Part shown: one piece after another, positions 42,436 to 63,742 of the stretch
Numbering within the stretch: position 1 is the stretch's first letter
Layout: each line of letters starts with the position of its first letter
Origin: Bacteroidota bacterium
Lineage (GTDB): Bacteria; Bacteroidota; Bacteroidia; B-17B0; Aurantibacillaceae
Direction of reading: 5' to 3'
Length of the DNA: 64,000 nucleotides
Assembly (NCBI GenBank): GCA_013697245.1
Contig: JACCXH010000051.1
Span: 1-64,000, forward strand
Notes under the pieces: generated by a model
The model's database searches: none
What the model was told of the DNA's origin: nothing
Seen by the model: only the letters and a program-made list of their open reading frames with translations
Made by a program: the position numbers and the translations under genes

Positions 42436-42508
42436 AGAACGCTGATGGCCCTGGTAAATATGATCAGCAAAGATAAAAATCAACGAACATCTGCGTTATC
42501 GGCGTTCT
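42436..42508. repeat. imperfect inverted-repeat intergenic element
   Basis: AGAACGCTGAT...ATCGGCGTTCT termini (10/11 complementary). Confidence 0.6.
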
Positions 42509-42571
42509 CAGCGTTCAATAATCGGTCCCAGAGTGACCAAACAATTTTAAAAAAGTGCATCAATAGAAACA

Positions 42572-42588
42572 TTGCCCCGGAGGGGCAA
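42572..42588. repeat. REP-like palindrome TTGCCCC-GGA-GGGGCAA
   Basis: Perfect 7-bp stem, 3-nt loop; exact inverse of 43087..43103. Confidence 0.85.
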
Positions 42589-42605
42589 AACAAAAGGTTA
42601 AAATT

Positions 42606-43070
42606 ATGGCGGATACTTACACCCAAATTTTTTATCACGTTGTTTTTGCGGTTAGAAACCGTGAATCTTTGATCGTTCCCGAAATAAAAGAAGATCTATA
42701 TAAATACATTAACGGAATTGTTACCAATCAAAAACAAAAATTATTTATCATTAATGGAATGCCCGATCATGTACATCTCTTATTGAATTGTAAGCCTAAT
42801 ATGAATTTATCGGATATAGTCCGGGAAATAAAAGGACACTCTACAAAATTTATAAATGATAAAAAGATCCTAAAAGGTAAGTTTTATTGGCAGGCTGGAT
42901 TTGGAGCATTTACGGTTTCAAAAAAAGATGTTTCAATGATCTTAAACTATATTAAGAACCAGGAAGAACATCATAATAAAAGAACGTTTCACGAAGAGTA
43001 TCTTGAATTTTTAAGAGAAAATGAGATCGAATTCAAAGAGGAATATTTGTTTAATTTCGACCTCAAATAA
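42606..43070 (+). mobile_element. REP-associated/IS200-like tyrosine (HUH, Y1) transposase
   Basis: YTQIFYHVVFAVRNRE, PDHVHLLL HUH motif, FYWQAGFGAFTVS, ILNYIKNQEEHH catalytic Tyr region. Confidence 0.93.
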
Positions 43071-43086
43071 TTGAGAAAATCATGTT

Positions 43087-43255
43087 TTGCCCCTCCGGGG
43101 CAATAAAAACAATGCTTTATCTTTTTCTACCATGTTTGGCCTCGCTGAGGCCTTTTTAAATATTTCAAATAAACAATTTCTGCTTGCATAGTCCCAACGG
43201 GACTTAATATTTACAGAAACCAACATCAAGAGCTCAAATTGCCTCAGAGAGGCAA
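43087..43255. repeat. cluster of four REP-like palindromes downstream of the RAYT
   Basis: 43087 TTGCCCC-TCC-GGGGCAA; 43138 GGCCTC-GCT-GAGGCC; 43190 AGTCCC-AAC-GGGACT; 43239 TTGCCTC-AGA-GAGGCAA. Confidence 0.85.
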
Positions 43256-43319
43256 AACAAAGACGTATCAATTTATAATTTATTGCATATTAACCCTTTA
43301 AAATCTCTCAAAAATAGCC

Positions 43320-63580: not shown

Positions 63581-63742
63581 TATTTCGTCCCTACGGGACT
63601 TAAATAGCCCTGGTCATAATTTTTATCATATATAGTCCCTACGGGACATTAAGATAAATTAAAATGCTAAGATCCCTTTAGGGATCAAATCTTAGTAGAA
63701 AATATAGCATGAAAATTTTATTAGTCCCGTAGGGACGAAATA
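63581..63742. repeat. palindrome-rich element bounded by perfect 20-bp inverted repeats
   Basis: TATTTCGTCCCTACGGGACT (63581) and AGTCCCGTAGGGACGAAATA (63723); internal GTCCC-TAC-GGGAC (63635) and GATCCC-TTTA-GGGATC (63671). Confidence 0.9.

Follow-up and report, generated by a model that had tools for sequence, protein, structure and literature searches.

In the window, the 64-kb stretch of DNA analysed here, a low-copy HUH/Y1 transposase gene (tnpA) lies between two inverted end modules, each consisting of two hairpins of the same polarity with a CTAY tag between them. We consider it likely that this locus is a REPtron-like single-stranded DNA (ssDNA) system of TnpA_Y1 subclass 1.2 with a new architecture, the activity of which we infer. 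The window layout is HP1–tag–HP2–tnpA–HP2′–tag–HP1′, followed downstream by a second, inverted module; within each end module, HP2 is located next to the gene and HP1 is the outer hairpin. When folded as ssDNA, the modules flanking tnpA form two hairpins each.

The tnpA gene (42606..43070, + strand) encodes an intact Y1_Tnp protein of 154 amino acids, an HUH single-tyrosine transposase with the subclass 1.2 signature. In the upstream end module, HP2 (TTGCCCC-GGA-GGGGCAA; 42572..42588, − strand) adjoins the tnpA start codon, and its exact inverted copy, HP2′ of the downstream end module, occupies 43087..43103 (+ strand); the exact identity extends over 22 nt (42571-42592 versus 43083-43104). 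Sequence and covariance model together place the upstream HP1, GGTCCC-AGA-GtGACC, at 42524..42538 (− strand), where it has decayed by one mismatch and precedes a degenerate tag, AAACAATTTTAAAA (42539-42552). In the downstream module, the tag CTACC (43127..43131, + strand; consensus CTAY), identified from the sequence, lies shortly 5′ of HP1′, GGCCTC-GCT-GAGGCC (43138..43152, + strand). The second, inverted module comprises HP1, AGTCCC-AAC-GGGACT (43190..43204, − strand), the degenerate tag TACAG (43212-43216), and HP2, TTGCCTC-AGA-GAGGCAAAACA (43239..43255, − strand). Compared with the HP2 next to the gene, this last HP2 has one compensated base-pair change and one altered loop base, and its 22-nt stretch is matched exactly at G000:C11:14888. 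The covariance model matches the upstream module at 42519-42592(−) with 53.8 bits (E 2e-7) and the second module at 43185-43259(−) with an E-value of 8.9e-8, both of them outside the training set; the downstream module, matched at 43083-43157(+), is part of that set. A sequence-only reading of this DNA had already located the gene, the TTGCCCC palindrome with its reverse complement, the 22-nt identity and the three palindromes further downstream, all of which are borne out, and it had lacked the decayed upstream HP1, the CTACC tag and a dispersed copy at 63581-63742.

Could these hairpins be a product of chance? The window contains seven GC-rich hairpins with a 3-nt loop and a stem of at least 6 bp, as compared to 0-5 in dinucleotide shuffles, and five of the seven are clustered in ~690 bp, with just two in the rest of the window. 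The shuffle comparison and the clustering therefore indicate that the hairpins at tnpA are not due to chance.

The association with the gene extends to 80 homologous loci (49-86% identity), which come from Bacteroidota and from contigs labelled Verrucomicrobia, Ignavibacteria, Planctomycetota and others. The covariance model was trained on 16 modules, using only rows with 3-nt loops, because the stems were out of register in a MAFFT alignment mixing 3- and 4-nt loops, which was dropped. This model places a module in the expected orientation no more than 130 bp from the gene at 65 of the 80 loci (57 of the 72 non-training loci) and detects none at 15, with the qualification that the training set overlaps the test sets in part and that many of the genomes are draft MAGs. 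Upstream of the gene, the right orientation outnumbers the wrong one by 53 to 6 and the median distance to the module is 15 bp; downstream, the corresponding values are 52 to 14 and 18.5 bp. A strict pattern search, performed before any model was built, recovered the complete module from 26 of 210 flanks of the gene, versus 2 of 6530 background windows. The 200 bp immediately 3′ of the gene contain 1.92 hairpins per kb, as compared to 0.14/kb beyond 2 kb; within intergenic DNA, the density is 1.11/kb within 600 bp of tnpA and 0.23/kb beyond 2 kb. Single-hairpin statistics were enriched yet noisy, and the two-hairpin module was used instead.

Across these loci the module has a fixed build. HP2′ is followed after ~37 nt by HP1′, with the CTAY tag 7-9 nt 5′ of HP1′; in both hairpins the stem measures 5-7 bp and the loop 3-4 nt, and the pitch is ~50 bp. 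The consensus of 169 modules reads roughly ATATC–[RYCCC-TAC-GGGRY]–T, a gap, and then the second hairpin, and the gap is mostly 36-38 nt long and ends in TTTCTAYAAACATT. In 120 of 170 modules, the distance between CTAY and the inner 5-bp stem of HP1 is 9 nt. Two loci (L069 and L091) display the complete arrangement, HP1–GGTAG–HP2–gene–HP2′–CTACC–HP1′, with hairpin centres ~50 bp apart. Head-to-tail arrays of modules with a period of about 95-100 bp are seen at three loci (L108, L110 and L123), and at another (L089) the gene sits within an array of 16 hairpins.

The sequence-only reading had interpreted the differing palindromes as several stem variants, brought together by relaxed recognition or by layered insertion of several families. 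The module order, the ~50-bp pitch and the CTAY tag are kept in homologous loci while the stems covary, so this interpretation is unsupported: the hairpins are set positions in two inverted copies of one module. Six loci (L020, L021, L049, L069, L091 and L118) combine other stems with an unchanged order, pitch, tag and polarity. Moreover, HP1 and HP2 of one module resemble each other more than expected (similarity 0.74 versus 0.59; 0/5000 shuffles).

The stems themselves show extensive covariation. In 150 aligned modules, all 14 pairs have changed on both sides, and 81.8% of the cells are paired, versus 67.3% in shuffles and 30-52% when the pairing is slid; this alignment was fitted to the model, which favours pairing, and the slid controls are still far lower. 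A slide of one column reduces the paired cells from 82% to ~50%, and double-change cells number 478, versus 153 in shuffles. In the inner stems, G-C and A-T pairs interchange freely and G-T pairs are almost absent. An RNA stem would accept G-U pairs. The near-absence of G-T pairs and the near-perfect palindromy therefore argue for recognition as DNA, not RNA, and the alignment points to selection on the module structure as DNA. For one and the same gene, the upstream and downstream HP2 arms have an identity of 0.83 versus 0.68 when shuffled, and the HP1 hairpins 0.77 versus 0.59 (0/5000 in each case). Stem identity also climbs with protein identity (Mantel r 0.25; 0/5000). Such tracking of the protein by the stems fits co-evolution or local homogenisation, and shared descent of the neighbouring DNA contributes too.

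To which class does the transposase belong? Its HUH and tyrosine-motif residues are H55, H57, Y115, Q119, H122 and H123, and the motifs DHVH, WQ and YIKNQEEHH match TnpA_Y1 subclass 1.2, an assignment based on the motif definition of PMC6006769 rather than on those authors' own HMM. Residues H55, H57, W95, Q96, Y115, Q119, H122 and H123 are invariant across 18 aligned homologues. In the same alignment, F128, E131, Y132, L136 and F149, in the tail following the catalytic tyrosine, are likewise invariant; judged by these residues, the window protein has the conserved short C-terminal domain of subclass 1.2. The protein passes the NCBIfam IS200/IS605 model NF033573 (84.5 bits, cut-off 55) and fails REP_Tyr_transpos (41.1 bits, cut-off 80). 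The nearest solved structures in the PDB are single-tyrosine transposases, including the ISHp608 TnpA. The sequence-only label of a RAYT/HUH transposase thus holds as far as a Y1 HUH gene with hairpins in a REPtron-like layout is concerned, and is not supported for a RAYT in the strict sense. The tnpA paralogues in the genome of the window are at most 49% identical to it. A canonical IS200-like transposase (L004, G000:C45:571-969; 119 bits) is located on a 3.9-kb contig. Two more distant Y1 paralogues (L003, G000:C52:143703-144107, and L045) lie between perfect palindromes, whose stems are 8-20 bp long and whose loops are 2 nt; they form a separate subfamily, which seems to have its own hairpins.

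Next, we consider the copies elsewhere in the genome. The exact TTGCCCC stem occurs nowhere else in the 4.44-Mb genome, and allowing up to 2 mismatches adds one site, with the compensated stem TTGCTCC-GGA-GGAGCAA. Taken alone, these searches suggested that the stem is private to the tnpA locus, a view we rejected: since the stems covary and drift, such searches are the wrong test, and a misleading one. With a structure-aware search, the genome yields 36 modules at E up to 1, most of them arranged as inverted pairs. In its exact form, the genome-wide stem search proposed by the sequence-only reading would have counted against that reading, which named a lack of the palindromes elsewhere as its refutation, yet the module itself proved to be dispersed. 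The genome contains two stem types, the window type (TTGC..GCAA with GG..CC) and that of a paralogue on contig C53 (GTCCC..GGGAC), which is 49% identical to the window TnpA. We also compared the CGTCCC hairpins with the CGTC-tagged REPs, which are not tied to transposases (PMC3733652), and rejected this match, as those repeats have 8-9 bp stems and 4-5 nt loops. The dispersed non-coding copies are mostly inverted module pairs of ~160 bp or tandem arrays. One of them, a unit of the paralogous family, lies in the window at 63581..63742; it comprises HP2′ (63587-63599), HP1′ (63635-63647), HP1 (63671-63686), GTAG (63695-63698) and HP2 (63724-63736).

We compared five relatives that have the most similar abc-F neighbour and keep the dnaE–abcF order (G019, G021, G006, G012 and G007). 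The ~0.7-kb tnpA block and its hairpins are missing from the dnaE–abcF junction in all five, and the simplest reading of this comparison is that the block was gained in the present lineage; as the orthologous empty sites are not base-exact, deletion is possible in single cases. The unit at 63581-63742 is absent in three of the relatives (G019, G006 and G012), where 13-28 bp correspond to 225 bp in this genome; it is in the opposite orientation in G021, and G007 carries a more diverged unit. The flanks directly beside the unit differ between relatives, which blurs the exact junctions and any target duplications. The inversion in G021 could have arisen through recombination between the outer hairpins or through reinsertion. 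At this junction, the interval 42437-42517 after dnaE contains what is left of a longer, imperfect palindrome (GAACGCTGAT...GGCGTTCTCAGCGTTC), and similar inverted repeats of ~90 bp occur there in relatives (GATGGAACACTGAT...GTTCCATC). This palindrome belongs to a different repeat family from the tnpA modules.

Gene and modules also occur together on the scale of whole genomes. Among 149 genomes of the class, with modules counted at E up to 0.01, modules are present in 53 of the 57 with a strong gene match, 13 of the 33 with a weak match and 6 of the 59 without a match. The odds ratio of strong versus none is 117 (Fisher p 3e-21), a statistic that ignores phylogeny. Genomes with a strong gene match have a median of 9 modules. 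In a set of 60 relatives, 29 of 36 genomes with the gene and 3 of 24 without it carry modules. The modules of the six gene-less genomes possibly reflect a lost gene, an unassembled gene or another transposase. Two close relatives (G006 and G007) have 5-6 modules and no detected transposase gene; these may be orphan repeats left after gene loss.

Are the hairpins ordinary intergenic elements, such as bidirectional terminators or mRNA-stabilising hairpins, that are incidental to tnpA? They are intergenic and GC-rich, and some gene-adjacent regions (e.g. L069) do have terminator-like hairpins with T runs. However, terminators are not expected to show a fixed CTAY position or an orientation relative to tnpA, nor to co-occur with the gene across genomes and nearly lack G-T pairs, and the density of intergenic hairpins drops about five-fold away from tnpA. 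A comparison of the modules with Rfam gave no family above threshold, only sub-threshold chance matches. We consequently regard this explanation as very improbable. Successive insertion of several unrelated hairpin families beside tnpA, the layered insertion mentioned above, could account for differing stems side by side, and the genome does have two stem families with separate tnpA genes, but the constant build of homologous loci with other stems and the likeness of HP1 and HP2 within one module leave it scarcely credible.

A classical IS200/IS605 insertion sequence with tnpA only, mobile as a whole and with the hairpins as its ends, is a more serious candidate. The protein passes the IS200/IS605 model, its PDB matches are closest to IS200/IS605-type transposases, and the whole ~0.7-kb block is missing in five relatives. 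Still, a single two-hairpin module in inverted orientation forms both ends here, in place of left and right ends on the same strand; the gene copies in the genome are diverged, without proliferation, and most copies are non-coding modules. We judge this explanation unlikely, and retain that of a REPtron-like subclass 1.2 system.

How does this system compare with those described previously? Subclass 1.2 proteins are reported to be near IS200 proteins, of low copy and generally without typical IS ends, with REP scored as "no" (PMC6006769). The present locus shares with them the DHVH, WQ and Y---Q--HH motifs, the length of ~150 amino acids, the conserved C-terminal tail, the low copy number and the occurrence in Bacteroidota, and departs from the published description in that two-hairpin modules flank most homologues here and further copies are dispersed. 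In the published search for REPs, only stems of 7 bp or more with GTAG or GTGG placed 0-2 nt to their 5′ side qualified (PMC6006769); this search would have missed the modules, in which the stems are often 5-6 bp and the tag is 7-9 nt away. With the RAYT/TnpA_REP proteins and their REPs, BIMEs and REPINs in E. coli, Pseudomonas and Stenotrophomonas (PMC8266576, PMC3116915, PMC3733652), the locus shares a Y1 gene between inverted short hairpins, dispersal as inverted pairs, a TAG-type tag and an apparent co-evolution of protein and repeat. In contrast to these class 2 systems, the protein is class 1-like, with Y..NQ instead of Y..NP; CTAY lies between the hairpins, at 9 nt from the inner HP1 stem, whereas a GTAG-type guide precedes the hairpin foot by 0-2 nt; and each end of the repeating unit comprises two hairpins. 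The IS200/IS605 elements (IS608, ISDra2) have the closest proteins by sequence and similarly short, ssDNA-type hairpins near their ends, but not the inverted two-hairpin ends or the excess of non-coding repeats over genes, and there is no sign of recent gene proliferation here; the subterminal same-strand hairpins, lack of terminal inverted repeats and near-identical multiple copies of those elements are not found at this locus. Y1 genes between inverted repeats are also a feature of TIRYTs or TIRtrons (PMC3733652), most described examples of which are subclass 2.1 proteins that have a C-terminal HTH domain and GGGG[AT][CG]A[CG] repeats (PMC6006769), all three being absent here. We found no description of these module repeats in the openly licensed literature.

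By analogy with IS200/IS605 TnpA and TnpA_REP, which recognise ssDNA hairpins and cut nearby (general mechanism, PMC8266576), hairpin recognition on ssDNA and cutting near the tag is the most likely mode of action. TnpA would bind the module hairpins on single-stranded DNA, on the lagging strand, and would pick the cut site by reading the CTAY/RTAG tag or the A/T-rich foot; the tag may thus be the cut site or a guide. Tyr115 would be the cutting residue. TnpA would then excise, join or copy the modules, thereby spreading and homogenising the repeat family that belongs to it, while the gene block would seldom move. Finally, the stem pairs and the protein would drift together, giving each copy its own stem sequence. 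The window copy may no longer be active, because its stem family has few, diverged relatives in the genome. We also propose, tentatively, that one TnpA dimer reads both same-polarity hairpins and the CTAY between them as a composite site and spreads such sites, in Bacteroidota and other phyla, as inverted pairs, tandem arrays and in-place inversions, which would constitute a second REP system, independently built from class 1 (IS200-like) proteins.

Subclass 1.2 was named as IS200-like with neither IS nor REP properties, and its DNA targets were thus unassigned before. The module provides a predicted DNA substrate, with strand, tag and stem, for each member of the subclass, and identifies a common repeat family in many Bacteroidota genomes. 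It also suggests that REP-like systems came from class 1 proteins as well as from class 2. The hairpin pairs thereby suggest DNA targets for a widespread "orphan" enzyme family that was reported without targets of its own.
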